Assembly: GCA_017530365.1 (NCBI GenBank)
Contig: JAFXMK010000011.1
Span: 62,001-126,000, forward strand
Direction: 5' to 3'
Length of the DNA stretch: 64,000 bases
From: Bacteroidales bacterium
GTDB taxonomy: Bacteria; Bacteroidota; Bacteroidia; Bacteroidales; F082
Below the pieces are notes generated by a model that worked only from the letters and a program-made list of their open reading frames with translations, was not told the DNA's origin and did no database searches. Position numbers and translations under genes: made by a program. Shown here piece after piece: positions 35,266-43,399 of the stretch (positions are counted from its first letter, which is position 1; every line of letters begins with the position of its first letter).

Positions 35266-35286
35266 CTTCTCACTTCTGCCTTCTTA
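35266..35286 (-). repeat. 7-bp tandem repeat at the gatD 3' end
   Basis: Plus-strand CTTCTCA, CTTCTGC, CTTCTTA; the last unit contains the gatD stop codon. Confidence 0.75.
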
Positions 35287-36672
35287 TTTATGCACCTTGC
35301 GGATAAACTCCTCAACCTCAGGCACTCCGCCCTGATAGACGAGGTAGCCGTTATAAGGTTCACGAGGCGTAATCTCGCTGTTGACAGGCGTCAACATGAT
35401 CTTCTTGACCTCTTCCCTATCTTGAGTCTGACCCAACGCCCAACCCAATTTGATGTAGGCAGTCTCAGCAAGCATGTTGCCTGCCGGAATGATGCCACGA
35501 TTCATCAAGTCACGACCCGTGTCATACACGAACATGTGTGCATAGCCCCAAATGGTCTGCACCGTCATGTACTGGTGGACACCTTTTTCGGTGGCACGTT
35601 GGATGGAATCGAACATACCGCGGTTGACGTGACCCAGTCCAGTGCCGTCCCAAATGATACCCTTGTATCCATTGTCAACCAAAGCGTCAAGCACGTCAGG
35701 TTTCATGCCAGGATAGTAGTAAAGGATGGCCACACGGTCGTCAAAGGTGGGGATGATCTTCACATCGCGGTCAGCACGGCGGTGGTTGTACTCATCCTTG
35801 ATGGGCACCACACCGCGTTTGCGATCCACGGTAGCCACCGGCGTGTCACCGATGGTACGGAAGGTGGAACGGTAACTGGAGTGCATCTTGCGCACACGAG
35901 TGCCGCGATGCAGGAAGCCATATTCGTCGGAGGTAGGACCAAACATGCAAACCATCACCTCGGCCACATCACCGTGACCTGCGGCAGTCATGGCGTGCAT
36001 CAGATTCAAGGCAGCGTCCGACGAAGGACGGTCGGAAGAACGCTGTGAGCCGACCAAGACAATCGGTACTGGCAAGTTCTGGCACATGAAGGTCAGAGCG
36101 GCGGCAGTATGGGCTAACGTGTCAGTACCGTGACCGATCACGATACCGTCGATGCCGTTTTGGATTTCCTCACCAATCTTCTTGGCCAGGGCGATATACT
36201 CCTTTGGCGACATGTTCTCAGAGAACACGGCAAACACTTTCTCCGTGTCAAGGTTGCAGATGTCGGCCAACTCTGGCACGGCACCATAGAGCTCTCCAGG
36301 CGAAAAAGCGGGAATCACAGCACCCGTGCGATAGTCCAAACGCGAGGCGATGGTGCCTCCCGTACCCAACAACTTCACGTGAGGAAGGCCTTCCGTGTAG
36401 GGGAATTCCTTCTCTGGAATGTGGTAGTTGGCCTTCTTGTAGTCGGTCTCCACCATACTGGTGATGGTGCTGATATCGACACCAATGTTATAGCCCGTAT
36501 TGACCTTCATCACGATATGCTGGTCGTCCTGGAAGGCGGCACGTGGCAAGATCGTGCCTTTGAAGAGTCCGCCTGTAGTCTGGCATTCAGCCTGACTCCA
36601 CACGCGGCAGTTATATTTCTTGAGCACCTCAAGGGCGGCGCCCCAATAACCCTGGAAAAAATCTTCAGCCAT
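35284..36672 (-). CDS. gatD: Archaeal-type Glu-tRNA(Gln) amidotransferase subunit D homologue (GatD)
   Basis: 462 residues. In the GatDE enzyme, GatD is the asparaginase-like subunit that releases ammonia for amidation of Glu-tRNA(Gln). Unlike plain asparaginases it has an N-terminal beta domain of about 95 residues with VMKVNTGYNIGVDI, matching the GatD pattern of LDNGYNIGI. The catalytic residues are present: Thr107 (GTGGTIAS), Thr183 and Asp184 (HGTDT), and Lys262 (RGTRVRKMH). Their spacing (76, 1 and 78) agrees closely with the archaeal enzyme as I recall it (T101, T177, D178, K254). QRSSDRPSSDA and HRGTRVRKMH are GatD-like. It has its own promoter and terminator; the likely partner gene lies at 41453. 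An asparaginase function is the main alternative. Confidence 0.85.
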   Translation of the reverse strand: MAEDFFQGYWGAALEVLKKYNCRVWSQAECQTTGGLFKGTILPRAAFQDDQHIVMKVNTGYNIGVDISTITSMVETDYKKANYHIPEKEFPYTEGLPHVKLLGTGGTIASRLDYRTGAVIPAFSPGELYGAVPELADICNLDTEKVFAVFSENMSPKEYIALAKKIGEEIQNGIDGIVIGHGTDTLAHTAAALTFMCQNLPVPIVLVGSQRSSDRPSSDAALNLMHAMTAAGHGDVAEVMVCMFGPTSDEYGFLHRGTRVRKMHSSYRSTFRTIGDTPVATVDRKRGVVPIKDEYNHRRADRDVKIIPTFDDRVAILYYYPGMKPDVLDALVDNGYKGIIWDGTGLGHVNRGMFDSIQRATEKGVHQYMTVQTIWGYAHMFVYDTGRDLMNRGIIPAGNMLAETAYIKLGWALGQTQDREEVKKIMLTPVNSEITPREPYNGYLVYQGGVPEVEEFIRKVHK

Positions 36673-36710
36673 ATCTGTGGTTAATATTTAATTCTGCTTT
36701 AACCAAGGTG

Positions 36711-36718
36711 CAAATATA
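36711..36718 (-). promoter_or_regulatory. Putative -7 element of gatD
   Basis: Minus-strand TATATTTG, 39 bp upstream of gatD. No good -33 box is seen. Confidence 0.5.
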
Positions 36719-36843
36719 GGGTTATTTCCTATAGATTTAAAAAAGTTGAAGATTTTTTTTGCCTCATTCACTAAGAGAAGCCACTTGTCACATCTGAAGG
36801 CAACGGCAAAAGGAATTGCGACCAACGTTGTTTTCCATTTTCG

Positions 36844-39800
36844 TTATTTTACCACGATTTTTTGCGTGGTGGTCGCACCATTTTCGTCCGTGATGCGAAG
36901 CAGATACGCGCCTTGTGGCAAACCTCTTAGGCTGATTTCTTTGGTGTTTTTTGCGGTTTTAAGCAATTGGCCAAATGTGTTGTACACTTGTACCTCATTG
37001 GCGATTACACCCTCTATGTGGACGCTGCCGTTGGTAGGATTGGGGGAAAGGGATACATGACTAGAATCATTCTGGTTTTCCTCCGTTGTAGTTACGTCAA
37101 AATCACAAAACACAGGAAGCAACTGATTCTCAAAGCTCATGCCCGTGTCACACCAACTTAAAAGTTGTTCACCATTCAATTCTTCAACTTTAAAATTGAG
37201 CGCATCTAGCAAGTCATTGGTTGTAACCATACCGCCTTCAAGAGCAAAAGCTATTTCCTCGGTGAGTTTCCAATGCCCACGACCTTCTTCGGCAAACGGA
37301 CTGGTGTTGTAGTAGTTGTCGCCTTCGCCAGGGGAGTCGTCCAATTGCATATAATAACCGCTGAACGCAGGGTCGAAGTTTCGGATACGATTGTAATAAC
37401 AATTGTACACTTCACCCATGTTGCTCCCGGTTATGCCATTTCGTGGTCCAAGACCAGAACCGCCACCATAGCCTGGGAAATTTAAGATTTCGTGGATATA
37501 GACATAGCTGTTTTCTATTATCCCATGATTGAACATGCCTATCAAACCACAGTGTTCGGACCAATCCATTTGCTCGATAATTGATGCGCAGTTGTAAATA
37601 TGCGATGTGGGATAGGACATGGCTGCAAAAACGCCAGGAATAGCTGTACACCAACCGTCTGAACGATATAGCGGTACATGTACCAAGCAGTTGTAAATAG
37701 TCGAACTGTCGCAAAGATAAACGAATGGTGACATACCTTCATGGATGTGCATTTCGCATTCAACAAAGCAGTGTTCAATTGTACTCTTGTGAACTTTATT
37801 CGCCAAAAAACCTCCTTCACTATTGAATTGAGATTGGGCTTCATAATAACCGTTTTTCAAGATGATGTTTGATAAAGTAGCTTCTGACGTTTTACCAAAC
37901 AGCCCCATGGCCCAATAATTCGAGATGCCGTTGGTCATAGTCAGCCCATCTATCACATGTTCTTTGCCATCGAAGTTGCCTTTGAATCCATCTATGATTG
38001 TGTTTTTCCCTGCAATAGGAATCCAAAGTGCTTCAGAAAGATCAATGTTTTCTTCAAGGTTAATGGTTCTCCTTTCAAAATCATCGGCTTCCTGTCCATT
38101 GAGGCCGTTGGTCACGGAGCAGAGCCAAGCCAAGGCTTCGGCGGAATAAAGATGCACATCGCCGTTACCGTCTACCACATATCCTTCGGGCTGCTCGGTG
38201 ACAAGGTCTGTCCAGTATTGGTCGGGGAGCTCTCGCACTGGGTTGAGACGTCTTGGGAAGGTTTTCAATTTCCGTAATGCCTCATCCGTCTGCTTGACGA
38301 AGGCTTCCGCCGACTTGGGAACAAATTGCGCCAATTTCCCCTTTACGCCCTTTGTCCCGTTTGCTTCCATTCTCAGGTAAAGGTTTCCAAGATCGATGGT
38401 GGCAAAGATGCTATCGTTGTAAGGTGTCTCCTCGTTTTCTATGACTGCCTCGTACCATGCTATGGCTTGCTCGTAATGCTCCCTGAGTTCATCGCATTTA
38501 TTGGAAAGTGAACTGGCCATGGCAGAAAGGCTTTCATTGCCTTGAATTGTCGTATCATTAAGGTAATAATACTGCAAATCAGCATAGTTCTCGCCGTCAG
38601 CACCCTCTATCAGCAATAGCTTTTTCAAGGCATTGATGGCACTGTTGGTATTGGGGTAAAGGGTCACAATATCCCTGTAGCTCGTCTTGGCGGAAGCGTA
38701 AAGCCCGATACCCCACAGCGAATCTGCCTCTTCCGACTTCCTCTGCGCTTCCTCATTGCAACTTGAGAGGCAATAGCCGTAGTCCCACTTGGGGAGGAAG
38801 TCGAACACAACACCGTTGTTCGTGTTGGTTACGTAGTTGAAGCGGCTCTCTATCTGGGTGTTGTTGTAATTCCCCCAAGTGTTGTTTTCTAGGTCGATTC
38901 TTGAACATAAGCCTTTGCCGTTATCAACATTGTCCTCATACTCAAAGAACCATCCATCCCCCGAATTCGTGATGCAATTGAAGCGGAAGGTTTGCGGCAG
39001 GCAGCCGCGATAGACAGACACCTCACAATAGTCGTTGTCATGAATGTGTTGAGTCAGTCCAGCATTAGAGGCTCCACAGTTGCCTGTAAAGTTGTTCACG
39101 GTGCTCCCATTGATCAGTTTTACTCCCCTGCCGCACTGGGTGATTTCGTTTTTGCCCTTGATGTCGGCAGTGGTTCCATACAAGGTGAGACCCGTTTCCG
39201 TGCATCCTTTTATGGTGTTCCGAAGTATCTGGCTGCAGATTCCCGATGTTCCGCAGTTGTAGAGCAAAATACCATCGGTATAAAAACGAGAGGACATCGA
39301 TCCCGTGCCACTCAACGTATTGTCAGCAATCATGATATTGGAATAGCCTTCAACGCGCATGGCATATTCACACTGGCTTTCTGAGGCACTGAATGTGCAA
39401 TTGACTGCCGAGAACGACGAGGCGTTTATAGACGGGGCTGTCCTGTTTGTCCCTATGTTTGCCTGAAGTGTGACATTTGCAAAAGTACAACCATCGATGA
39501 TGACAGTCTGTTGTCCGTTGATTGTTATCGTCAATGTTGCACTTTTCTCGGCTTTGAAAGTTACACCTTGGCCGATTTGAACGTTGCCGTCCACCACAAT
39601 TTCGCAATCGCCTCTCTTGGCGGTGATGACGGCGTTGTCACCGATGACGAGCGAAGAGTTCGCTTCAATCAGCAGTTTGCATTCGTGGACATCAGTGCCG
39701 TACATGTCAAGGCTGACACCTTCGTTGATGGTTAATGTCGATTGACCACTTACAGTGACGGTACGACGTGCAACTTTATTAGTGGCGCATGTGTAATTTT

Positions 39801-41313
39801 GCAAAATACTAAATGGGTAAATCAAGTCGTAATCTACCGATAGTGTTGTAGTACTGTTTTTTTGGATTATAGCATAGGGATGCGCAGCATCTAATTCGAA
39901 AACTTCTCCCCACCTATAGTCGTATAAACGCAAATTGTCAACATAGGCCGTACCATTTGTATAATTACCTGTATAATTGTTATTGTCAATTATTTGTAAA
40001 AAATACTTTCCACAATTGTAAGGTGAATATTTTCCCCCAAAATTCAAAGCCAAGTCTATTGGGCCTGGATTGTGATTGTCTCCGTTAATAGGAATGGATA
40101 CACCTTGCAGTTCTCCTCCTTGATAATTAAAAACCTTGAAAAATACAGAATTATCGGGCAATTCAACAGAGGAGTTATTGCCTTTACCAACCATTAGTCT
40201 CATCGATTGTCTTCTCGGATGAGCAACTGTTGCTGAAAGAAAAACAGTCTGTTCTGCACCATTGGTGGCGCGACATGTATAGGCTCGTTTGTTATACTGC
40301 AGCTGACCATTTGCCAATAACTTATAAGGGATCCATACATACCCGTTGTTTTTCCAATTTGCTCCCCAACTATTTGCTACTTTGAAAGCACCTTTTTCAC
40401 AATTGGCTAATGGAGTGTTCTCTTCAGGTTCTACATGATTATCCGAAACCCAAATGTTGTCATCGTATCCGACGATGGTAAGAGCGTGACCTCCGGATGA
40501 AGCCCAAGATTTGATAATGTATTCACCCTCATGTGGGTTTCCTGAAGGGATAGTAGTGTAATGGTTGTTATTGCTTGGCATTTTTACCGAAATGATCGCA
40601 AGGCCACCGATTTCATCAAGGGTATTATGGGTAAAAAGCCATCTTTTGAGCCCATCCAAACTACCATATGTATCTCCCCAAGATATTTTAAACGGGTAAA
40701 TACCTTCTGTAAAATCTATACTATTCTCTGTTGCAGAAATATAATTCTCCGTTCCATCCAACCAGTAGCGAAAAGGTAACTGGTTGGTATTCGGATTATA
40801 TGGCGGATTAAGAATAGGATTATAATAATTGTTTAGTGTAGGGCAACCATTTTCAGCCACAATTACAAATCCAGAACCATAATTTGTGTATTGTGTCCCA
40901 TCCCCTTTGTTTAGAAAATTATAAGTAAAGAAAGGATGGAAAAGATTCTGCATTTCCGTTTGCGTTCCATTGTACCAACGACTGCCTGCCGGCACATCTA
41001 AATATCGGTTTCGCTCATACGTAAACACATATCCAACTTCAGCACATTGTACGCATGAGCTCGAAAAACCTTGGTCAAAAATAGGCGGCATATATCCTTC
41101 AACCAAAATCGAATTGTCCACAGCGGAAGGCAAAACCCTTGTTAAAGCCTCCTGTATCCACACTATTTCAGGCAACGATGATTCAAAAACCGAATCAACG
41201 GTTGCGTCACAGACAATGTGTGTTTCGCTCATTGTTTGCCCAAAAAGATGCGAGACGAAGAGCAGAGAAATGGCTAAAGCCATCTTCTGGATAAGTACAA
41301 ATCGATTTTTCAT
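36844..41313 (-). CDS. Secreted papain-like (C1) protease with beta-helix and T9SS domains
   Basis: 1489 residues. A signal peptide (to about 25) is followed by a C1-type domain with a likely triad of Cys87 (QGFSSSCVQC), His276 (GGHALTIVGYDDN) and Asn314 (VANSWGANW). The cysteine lies in an SCV context, as in several Bacteroidota C1 peptidases, not in the classical CGSCW. A right-handed beta-helix region follows (about 500-830), then a helical TPR-like stretch (about 850-1010), GLUG-like repeats (about 1060-1350) and a T9SS type A tail from LSPNPTNGSV to IVVK. The protease part is visibly richer in A and T than the rest, which hints at a mosaic origin. It separates the gatE and gatD homologues. 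Confidence 0.85.
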   Translation of the reverse strand: MKNRFVLIQKMALAISLLFVSHLFGQTMSETHIVCDATVDSVFESSLPEIVWIQEALTRVLPSAVDNSILVEGYMPPIFDQGFSSSCVQCAEVGYVFTYERNRYLDVPAGSRWYNGTQTEMQNLFHPFFTYNFLNKGDGTQYTNYGSGFVIVAENGCPTLNNYYNPILNPPYNPNTNQLPFRYWLDGTENYISATENSIDFTEGIYPFKISWGDTYGSLDGLKRWLFTHNTLDEIGGLAIISVKMPSNNNHYTTIPSGNPHEGEYIIKSWASSGGHALTIVGYDDNIWVSDNHVEPEENTPLANCEKGAFKVANSWGANWKNNGYVWIPYKLLANGQLQYNKRAYTCRATNGAEQTVFLSATVAHPRRQSMRLMVGKGNNSSVELPDNSVFFKVFNYQGGELQGVSIPINGDNHNPGPIDLALNFGGKYSPYNCGKYFLQIIDNNNYTGNYTNGTAYVDNLRLYDYRWGEVFELDAAHPYAIIQKNSTTTLSVDYDLIYPFSILQNYTCATNKVARRTVTVSGQSTLTINEGVSLDMYGTDVHECKLLIEANSSLVIGDNAVITAKRGDCEIVVDGNVQIGQGVTFKAEKSATLTITINGQQTVIIDGCTFANVTLQANIGTNRTAPSINASSFSAVNCTFSASESQCEYAMRVEGYSNIMIADNTLSGTGSMSSRFYTDGILLYNCGTSGICSQILRNTIKGCTETGLTLYGTTADIKGKNEITQCGRGVKLINGSTVNNFTGNCGASNAGLTQHIHDNDYCEVSVYRGCLPQTFRFNCITNSGDGWFFEYEDNVDNGKGLCSRIDLENNTWGNYNNTQIESRFNYVTNTNNGVVFDFLPKWDYGYCLSSCNEEAQRKSEEADSLWGIGLYASAKTSYRDIVTLYPNTNSAINALKKLLLIEGADGENYADLQYYYLNDTTIQGNESLSAMASSLSNKCDELREHYEQAIAWYEAVIENEETPYNDSIFATIDLGNLYLRMEANGTKGVKGKLAQFVPKSAEAFVKQTDEALRKLKTFPRRLNPVRELPDQYWTDLVTEQPEGYVVDGNGDVHLYSAEALAWLCSVTNGLNGQEADDFERRTINLEENIDLSEALWIPIAGKNTIIDGFKGNFDGKEHVIDGLTMTNGISNYWAMGLFGKTSEATLSNIILKNGYYEAQSQFNSEGGFLANKVHKSTIEHCFVECEMHIHEGMSPFVYLCDSSTIYNCLVHVPLYRSDGWCTAIPGVFAAMSYPTSHIYNCASIIEQMDWSEHCGLIGMFNHGIIENSYVYIHEILNFPGYGGGSGLGPRNGITGSNMGEVYNCYYNRIRNFDPAFSGYYMQLDDSPGEGDNYYNTSPFAEEGRGHWKLTEEIAFALEGGMVTTNDLLDALNFKVEELNGEQLLSWCDTGMSFENQLLPVFCDFDVTTTEENQNDSSHVSLSPNPTNGSVHIEGVIANEVQVYNTFGQLLKTAKNTKEISLRGLPQGAYLLRITDENGATTTQKIVVK

Positions 41314-41344
41314 GTTGGGGAGCTTTTAAGAATTTGAGGCTTTG

Positions 41345-41375
41345 CAAATATAAGACAATTTTCCCAAACATGCAA
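41345..41375 (-). promoter_or_regulatory. Putative promoter of the C1 protease gene
   Basis: Minus-strand TTG (41373-41375), a 20-bp gap, then TATATTTG (41345-41352), 32 bp upstream of the start. Confidence 0.6.
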
Positions 41376-41390
41376 GTAATAACAATACGA

Positions 41391-41431
41391 AAAGCCGTCG
41401 CATGAGACGCTAAATATCATGCGACGGCTTT
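41391..41431 (-). terminator. Terminator of the gatE-like gene
   Basis: Perfect 15-bp stem (AAAGCCGTCGCATGA / TCATGCGACGGCTTT) with an 11-base loop, 22 bp after the gatE stop. The U tract is short. Confidence 0.75.
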
Positions 41432-41452
41432 GTCAATCCTAATTCAGAAAGG

Positions 41453-43399
41453 CTACTTTATGTTGTTAGCCAATTCCTTCAATTCGATGTTGCCCACCGC
41501 CTCTTTCATCTGTCCCATAATCCAGTTACGCTTGTTGACCGCTGCATGGAACTTCTTGCGAGGGATGTAAGACGTTATCAGTTTGTCGAGTTTCTTGCTG
41601 ATAGTATCTTCCGAAGCCCTACGGAAACCAATGGTCCGAAGCACTTCCTTCATTTCCATGGAAGCGTCGTTCACCAGTGTCGGAGCCATGTTCCAAGCCA
41701 GACGGTAGTTGAGTTTCTCACGTTTCAAGAAAGCAAAGAGTTTGTAAAGCGTCTCGCCATTGAATTGTGAATCGGGATTCTTGCACATCAGGTTCTTCAG
41801 TCTCATGCCCACGAAGCAGCCCAACATACGGCCATCCACGCCGAGTTTTTCCACGATGTCGTTCATGGCCGGGAACCAGTTCTTGGCAAAGATGTAGGTG
41901 AAGCAGTCCTGCGGGACATTCCATTCCTTCAGCTTGTAGTAACGATCGATGACCTCGGAAGGCAGTTCCTTCTTCATCGCCTCGATCTCCTTCGGATCCA
42001 ACGGGATGGGAGCCGAGTCAGTATCGGGATACATACGGTCAGCGCCAGGCAACACACGCTCGAAGATGGTGATGCCATTGCAGACGGCCTTACGGGTCTC
42101 TTTCGGCACACCGTCGAAAGCCATCAGGCAGCGTTCCTCAATGGTCTCAATGGCAGTAGGCATGTCGTTCTTGGGACCCCAGATCAGGATAAGGGCGTCT
42201 TTTTCGGTGGCGTGGACCTTCTTGCCGAGTTTACGCCACACGGAGGGTTCCAGCACCGGCTCAAACATCTCGTCATGAAGCATGTTGGGACGTTCAAGGC
42301 AGGCGATGACCTTCAGACGGTCGGCAATCTCATCGGCGAACATCTTGCCCGGTTGGGTGAAATGCGACAACACGCTGCGGAAGCCTGGGAGACGGACGAT
42401 CTTCAAAGCTCCACCGGCGGCTTTGGCATCGCAAATCGGAGTATAATCAGTCTTGAAGCCCACATCGGCTACTTCGACCTTCCAGTGGGCTTTCTTCAGT
42501 TTCTTGTTGAGCTTCTCGGCAAGCTGCACCAGCGACCACTGACGGAAGCACTCGTTGTGCGACAGCTCAGGAATCCACTTGGCATGCTGGACACCTTTGA
42601 GCTCGACACGGGTGCCGCCCTTACAGCTCACGTTGACGTCTTGACGGCCGGCGCCCATGCCCGTGCGGACAAGGCCAGTGGAACGGCCCAGGAAACGGAT
42701 GTATTCGCAGGTCTCACGCAACTCGTCGGGGTTCTTGCAATCGGGGTAGGTCACCGTCTCAATCAACGGCACACCCAAACGGTCGGTCTGATAGATGCGA
42801 CGGTGTCCGATATCGCTGATCTCACGGCAGGCATCTTCTTCGACGCTCAGCTGGATAAGGCGGATGTCCTTCTTCGGCATCTTCAACAGGCCTTCCACGC
42901 CCACAATGGCGGTACGTTGGAAGCCCGTCGGAATGGAGCCGTCGAGGTATTGCTTACGGGTGATGTGCACCTCGCCCACGATATTGAGATTCGATCTCAA
43001 GGCGATGACGATGGCGTTATGCAGCGCCTCCTTGTTGATGGGGAACGGAGGCGTGTCATCGATGTCGTAGGTACATGCCGTCTGGTTCTTGATGCGATAG
43101 ACGATCTCCTTCTTGGTTTTGAACTCCATCAAGGCGGTGCCGTCGTATTCACCCAACTCGGAAAGCGTGGGGCGCATGTGACGGATCAGTTCGGCATCGT
43201 AGTCCTCAAATTTGTTGAATCGTCCGGCTGGGCAGTGGCAGAACAACTTCTCTTTGGTCTTGATCTGCTGGTGCACTTCCAGTCCCGACATGAAGCCAAT
43301 GTGGTTGTAATCTCTTTGCTTGGCTTTTTTGCGCTCTACGTAGCCGATCTCTTTTTTGGTCTGCTCGTAGTTGGCGCGAGGATCAAAATTAGTGCTCAT
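41453..43399 (-). CDS. gatE: Archaeal-type Glu-tRNA(Gln) amidotransferase subunit E homologue (GatE)
   Basis: 648 residues. In GatDE, GatE binds Glu-tRNA(Gln), activates the glutamate with ATP and amidates it with ammonia from GatD. The catalytic part begins FMSGLEVHQQIKTKEKLFCHCP (the GLE-H-Q and LFC-C-P cores). It continues with RPTLSELGEYDGTALMEF, TACTYDIDDTPPFPIN and GSIPTGFQRTAIV, all closer to GatE than to GatB as I remember the families. A GAD-like insertion (about 310-440) with RLPGFRSVL and HATEKDALILI, and the LPGADRMYPDTD block, are absent from ordinary GatB. The C-terminal tail (about 480-648) has the GatB/YqeY-like helical form. Cys54 and Cys56 may bind zinc. It is divergent from the RNA methyltransferase gene. 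Confidence 0.85.
   Translation of the reverse strand: MSTNFDPRANYEQTKKEIGYVERKKAKQRDYNHIGFMSGLEVHQQIKTKEKLFCHCPAGRFNKFEDYDAELIRHMRPTLSELGEYDGTALMEFKTKKEIVYRIKNQTACTYDIDDTPPFPINKEALHNAIVIALRSNLNIVGEVHITRKQYLDGSIPTGFQRTAIVGVEGLLKMPKKDIRLIQLSVEEDACREISDIGHRRIYQTDRLGVPLIETVTYPDCKNPDELRETCEYIRFLGRSTGLVRTGMGAGRQDVNVSCKGGTRVELKGVQHAKWIPELSHNECFRQWSLVQLAEKLNKKLKKAHWKVEVADVGFKTDYTPICDAKAAGGALKIVRLPGFRSVLSHFTQPGKMFADEIADRLKVIACLERPNMLHDEMFEPVLEPSVWRKLGKKVHATEKDALILIWGPKNDMPTAIETIEERCLMAFDGVPKETRKAVCNGITIFERVLPGADRMYPDTDSAPIPLDPKEIEAMKKELPSEVIDRYYKLKEWNVPQDCFTYIFAKNWFPAMNDIVEKLGVDGRMLGCFVGMRLKNLMCKNPDSQFNGETLYKLFAFLKREKLNYRLAWNMAPTLVNDASMEMKEVLRTIGFRRASEDTISKKLDKLITSYIPRKKFHAAVNKRNWIMGQMKEAVGNIELKELANNIK

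Follow-up and report, generated by a model that had tools for sequence, protein, structure and literature searches.

The tRNA-dependent amidotransferase GatCAB is assigned to bacteria and GatDE to archaea in PMC7373986, and PMC8007984 (2021) and PMC9499178 (2022) place GatDE in archaea only, the latter describing it as restricted to them today; two reviews from 2022 regard the enzyme as exclusively archaeal. According to PMC9499178, no archaeon encodes glutaminyl-tRNA synthetase (GlnRS), and archaeal GatDE functions because tRNA-Gln is charged by GluRS and no GlnRS is present. AsnRS, GlnRS and GatCAB are surveyed across 547 bacterial genera in PMC4206432. A report of bacterial GatDE was not found in our literature search, most subscription papers lying beyond its reach; since curated models able to name such proteins already exist, database annotation of them is likely earlier than this analysis. 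Here a gatE and a gatD gene are described from a 64,000-nt stretch of Bacteroidales DNA (the window; positions 62,001-126,000, forward strand, of contig JAFXMK010000011.1, assembly GCA_017530365.1). The host is a rumen bacterium, and its own genome (G000) is an assembly of 50 contigs resembling a metagenome-assembled genome (MAG), 88% complete. Membership of both proteins in the GatDE family is firm, while catalysis, substrate and a repair or backup role are predicted from sequence; on balance, we favor a true Glu-tRNA(Gln) amidotransferase of the GatDE type that belongs to a bacterial family branch and is most likely a second or repair route beside GlnRS.

The archaeal enzymes of P. abyssi (1zq1) and M. 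thermautotrophicus (2d6f) consist of the same two subunits with the same domain order as here, and have in common with the window the Thr/Thr/Asp/Lys set of GatD as well as the catalytic core, AspRS-like insert and helical tail of GatE. The window GatD scores 499.9 bits against TIGR02153 (gatD_arch, cut-off 324) and 496.6 bits against a second curated GatD model (cut-off 310), and its GatD_N domain is fused to the asparaginase-type domains PF00710 and PF17763. Residues T107, T183, D184 and K262, which we take to be the catalytic ones, are invariant and align with the archaeal chains. Type I/II asparaginases have the catalytic domains in common with GatD, which passes TIGR00519 at 370 bits, but GatD has the extra N-terminal domain and scores 130 bits more to gatD_arch; against solved structures, phmmer gives E-values of 2.8e-115 (1zq1_A) and 6e-103 for archaeal GatD and 9.8e-44 for asparaginases. 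The window GatE reaches 380.1 bits against TIGR00134 (gatE_arch, cut-off 319.55) and at most 116.7 bits against GatB models, below all of their cut-offs. Its closest solved structures are 2d6f_C (E 5.1e-83) and 1zq1 (2.4e-80), compared to 1.2e-19 for the best GatB (3h0l), the structure predicted for it resembles archaeal GatE most closely, and its catalytic residues are conserved through to archaeal sequences. GatB of bacterial GatCAB has the catalytic domain PF02934 and the chemistry in common with GatE, which differs by its insert and by a partner that is an asparaginase-type GatD rather than the amidase GatA. Compared to the archaeal system, GatE here has about 28 additional residues at its N-terminus and a diverged tail, the host is a bacterium with both GlnRS and AsnRS, and the two proteins fall in separate clades. 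A preliminary description had proposed from the sequence a 462-residue GatD with an extra N-terminal domain, the NTGYNIG motif and four catalytic residues, and a 648-residue GatE with a GAD-like insert at about residues 310-440; both assignments are borne out by the family models, the domain matches and the position of the insert (Table 1).

Table 1. Coordinates of the gatDE locus and of related features in the window
Feature	Position	Strand	Basis
glnS (GlnRS), 581 aa	8476..10221	+	TIGR00440 662.7 bits (cut-off 425.8); NF011291 762 (cut-off 681)
tRNA-Gln (CUG); U1-A72, A73, short D-loop	13430..13503	+	ARAGORN, sequence
gatD, 462 aa, Glu-tRNA(Gln) amidotransferase subunit, glutaminase/asparaginase type	35284..36672	-	TIGR02153, Pfam, phmmer
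GatD N-terminal domain, residues 34-70 (NTGYNIG, residues 58-64)	36463..36573	-	PF18195 42.2 bits (cut-off 25.7)
TATATTTG, Bacteroidetes -7-like motif (presumed) upstream of gatD	36703..36718	-	sequence read
Gene between gatE and gatD, outside the enzyme; 1489 aa, type IX secretion system (T9SS)-sorted, papain-like	36844..41313	-	TIGR04183, Peptidase_C1
Hairpin after gatE, then T, terminator-like	41394..41428	-	sequence read
gatE, 648 aa, kinase/transamidase, tRNA-binding subunit	41453..43399	-	TIGR00134, GatB_N, phmmer
GatE tail (residues 482-648), helical and YqeY-like	41456..41956	-	
GatE insert (residues 303-433), AspRS-like (GAD-type)	42101..42493	-	predicted structure

Phylogenetic trees also set both proteins apart from their bacterial look-alikes. 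They were built with a quick method and without bootstrap, the tool gave a long-branch warning, and the archaeal rows (three for GatE, two for GatD) are too few to tell transfer from ancient descent. In the GatE tree of 68 rows, the eight GatBs are separated from the 60 GatEs (SH-like approximate likelihood ratio test, SH-aLRT, 100), the three archaeal rows group together (100), and a clade of 29 Bacteroidia-type rows (100) joins at 91 one of 27 rows of another Bacteroidota type (98). In the GatD tree of 56 rows, the 47 bacterial sequences form one clade (SH-aLRT 100) with a deep internal structure, with the two archaeal rows outside and seven Bacteroidales asparaginases in a clade of their own. 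One genome, G491 (locus L199), lies outside both bacterial GatE clades, and its GatE and GatD are both on long separate branches, perhaps a case of separate acquisition. Another, G304, belongs to a different class and yet both trees place it within the Bacteroidia type, as they do its companion G533 (loci L201 and L202); this is a sign of joint transfer and suggests that the gatDE pair moves as a unit.

The pair is not peculiar to the lineage of the window. Profile matches over cut-off were counted in 149 genomes from its order, where GatE was found in 63, GatD in 67, GlnRS in 134, GatB in 10 and AsnRS in 142, GlnRS being present in 57 of the 63 genomes with GatE. A larger Bacteroidales sample of 363 genomes at least 95% complete, with the window's own genome (88%) counted as well, gave 138 with GatE and 349 with GlnRS. 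Across 392 genomes of the phylum, GatE was over cut-off in 31, one of them the genome of the window and the other 30 belonging to other classes, and none was seen in other orders of the same class; the 30 contain GlnRS in 27 and GatB in 23 cases. Control genomes gave GatE matches in 4/14, and 4/14 of the controls were archaea (the matching four are not named). A scan of named genomes matched at least 565 stretches, of which 80 loci were kept for neighborhood comparison, all but two labeled Bacteroidota, Bacteroidetes, Bacteroidales or similar (one is Chlorobiota, one Sphingobacteriia); the nearest match among the matches listed is the Bacteroidia MAG RUG14627 (98%). The earlier proposal that this lineage acquired or retained GatDE thus holds in that the pair is a true one by profiles, structure prediction and trees, and needs widening, as the pair occurs commonly across the order. 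As to spread on plasmids, a tblastn search against PLSDB gave one GatE, from Natrinema, besides GatB-like matches. That sequence (L211, CP031304.1) is a haloarchaeal gatE with a frame break and is not a listed gene in the PLSDB table.

The two genes are usually neighbors. In 70 of the 80 named loci gatD follows gatE, always on the same strand and at a gap of 4-2571 bp (median 33), and GatD adjoins GatE in 29/30 loci from other classes. Seven of the ten named loci without gatD end less than 1.3 kb from gatE; the remaining three (L075, L083 and L084) have room, with 3.7-7 kb of sequence after gatE, yet no gatD downstream. No conserved third operon member was found among the 80 loci, the commonest flanking families occurring in at most 15. 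Between the window and 15 members of its clade, GatE has dN/dS values of 0.035-0.150 and GatD of 0.005-0.034; dS is about 1 or higher in most of these pairs, the safest being that with L033 (dS 0.30 and 0.35). The gatDE pair is under strong purifying selection.

The archaeal indirect glutamine pathway combines GatDE with the absence of GlnRS, and in this respect the host differs, as an intact glnS, unmentioned in the preliminary description, lies in the same window. Both gatDE and glnS are located on one contig with bacterial flanks, and in five single-contig assemblies (G590, G653, G272, G280 and G441) GatE and GlnRS are likewise both on the one contig, showing that their coexistence is not a binning artefact. 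Hence GatDE is not the only route to Gln-tRNA in this host, and most likely not the main one. In the preferred reading it would be constrained yet dispensable, serving as a second or repair route. GatD would free ammonia from glutamine or asparagine, and GatE would phosphorylate the glutamate side chain of Glu-tRNA(Gln) and then amidate it. The Glu-tRNA(Gln) so rescued may arise when GluRS mischarges tRNA(Gln), or be made on purpose as a bypass under shortage of free glutamine. A more specific version, less likely than not, is that Bacteroidota keep an old GatDE branch dedicated to quality control or to a starvation bypass, with GlnRS making most of the Gln-tRNA(Gln) and GatDE amidating the Glu-tRNA(Gln), whether mischarged or charged on purpose, to the correct form.

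Several observations weigh against the preferred reading. Six of the eight genomes of the window's genus have GatE and all eight have GlnRS, so that the other two retain GlnRS without GatE. GatE falls narrowly under the cut-off of a second GatE model (NF003107, 439.7 bits against 456). No GluRS column separates ten GatDE-positive from eight GatDE-negative genomes, a comparison that left out G000 and the genomes with GatB but without GatE, and if GluRS discriminates well, GatDE would be left with little substrate. The residue at T. thermophilus position 358, presumably a discrimination-related site, is Arg in 24/24 GluRSs, genomes without a GlnRS match included, and is uninformative as a marker of a non-discriminating GluRS. 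The tRNA-Gln(CUG) of G101, a genome without GatE, is 99% identical to that of the window, and a tRNA-Gln(CUG) that requires GatDE is therefore rejected as a general explanation. Given that neither GluRS, nor tRNA, nor GlnRS loss distinguishes the carriers, the proposal of a second or repair route draws on conservation and chemistry.

Among the alternatives, the GatDE fold may have been kept for a new substrate, either another acylated tRNA or a non-tRNA carboxylate. GlnRS is over cut-off in 134 of the 138 GatE-bearing genomes, which means that the classical need is absent while selection is nonetheless strong, and by eye the GatE tail is more variable than the catalytic part; the retention of catalytic residues and tRNA-binding architecture, in an operon lacking a conserved third gene, makes this unlikely. 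Somewhat less likely still, GatDE together with a non-discriminating GluRS could be the main route, with GlnRS secondary or being lost. The four exceptions among the 138 (G034, G075, G669 and G756), and G545, whose GatE is partial, are at least 95% complete and have no GlnRS match, and G034 and G075 show no GatB beyond the match of GatE itself. However, GlnRS is missing in 5/141 GatE-bearing genomes (three with partial matches included) and in 4/222 others (Fisher p 0.32), about what is expected from assembly gaps, the genera of G034 and G075 have members with intact GlnRS, and glnS is intact in the window. On the same counts, a replacement of GlnRS by GatDE is not supported.

A recently transferred archaeal operon, decaying and without function, would agree with the patchy distribution and with the operon of the window being split by another gene. 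We regard it as very improbable, as dN/dS is far below 1 and the deep structure of the bacterial GatD clade has its counterpart in deep bacterial clades of GatE. Archaeal DNA binned in error into a bacterial MAG could be suspected from the fragmented, incomplete and MAG-like assembly, but this is in effect refuted by a contig that also carries GlnRS and has bacterial flanks, by the single-contig assemblies with both enzymes and by the bacterial clades.

Reviews place GlnRS and GatDE in different domains of life, and a large bacterial GatDE branch that is strongly selected beside GlnRS contradicts the view of GatDE as an archaeal signature enzyme, a standing it would lose if the more specific version above is true. 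A misacylated tRNA would then be mended by amidation instead of hydrolysis in cells where a synthetase makes GatDE dispensable. Bacterial GatDE also bears on the debate about what amidotransferase was present in the last common ancestor. Hosts with both GatDE and GlnRS are organisms in which to ask what indirect glutaminylation offers when the direct route exists, and genomes of the same genus with and without GatE offer a comparison by which the role of GatDE can be tested.

Some features of the translation apparatus were observed in passing. The GluRS on contig C13 of G000 (L234, 9358-10821), the only GluRS match of that genome, is foreign to the order: it is 42% identical to that of G101, of the same genus, compared to 53-63% for the other native GluRSs compared with G101, and its best solved match is 4gri, while contig C13 is Bacteroidales-like by GC and neighbors. 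In G000 no GatB was over cut-off, or seen at all apart from the match of GatE itself, in an assembly 88% complete and with gatA and gatC not searched for. Among the 149 Bacteroidales genomes, GatB goes with missing GlnRS (5/10 versus 6/139, p 0.00017, uncorrected for kinship and with low-completeness genomes included). GlnRS of E. coli prefers G73. The 19 tRNA-Gln genes from 14 Bacteroidales genomes (L143-L156, L165-L169) all have U1-A72 and mostly an A73 discriminator (16 A73, three G73), with no apparent relation to GatDE within this set. The distance from glnS to tRNA-Gln(CUG) is about 3.2 kb in the window and less than 300 bp in G005 (C22), G032 (C143) and G146 (C80).

The preliminary description had gatE and gatD about 5 kb apart on one strand, separated by a secreted protease gene. 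The gap is 4780 bp, compared to 11 bp in L033, the nearest relative among the matches listed, where the T9SS gene is missing from the junction; its product carries the sorting signal (TIGR04183, 44.5 bits), and a protease nature has a Peptidase_C1 match of 19.7 bits, below cut-off. The gap with the T9SS gene, the hairpin after gatE and the TATATTTG motif before gatD, which we take to be -7-like, suggest that gatE and gatD of the window are probably separate transcription units. Differing secreted-protein genes are found at this one gatE-gatD junction within a single clade (L037, 6951-9521; L045, 8945-10528; window, 36844-41313).

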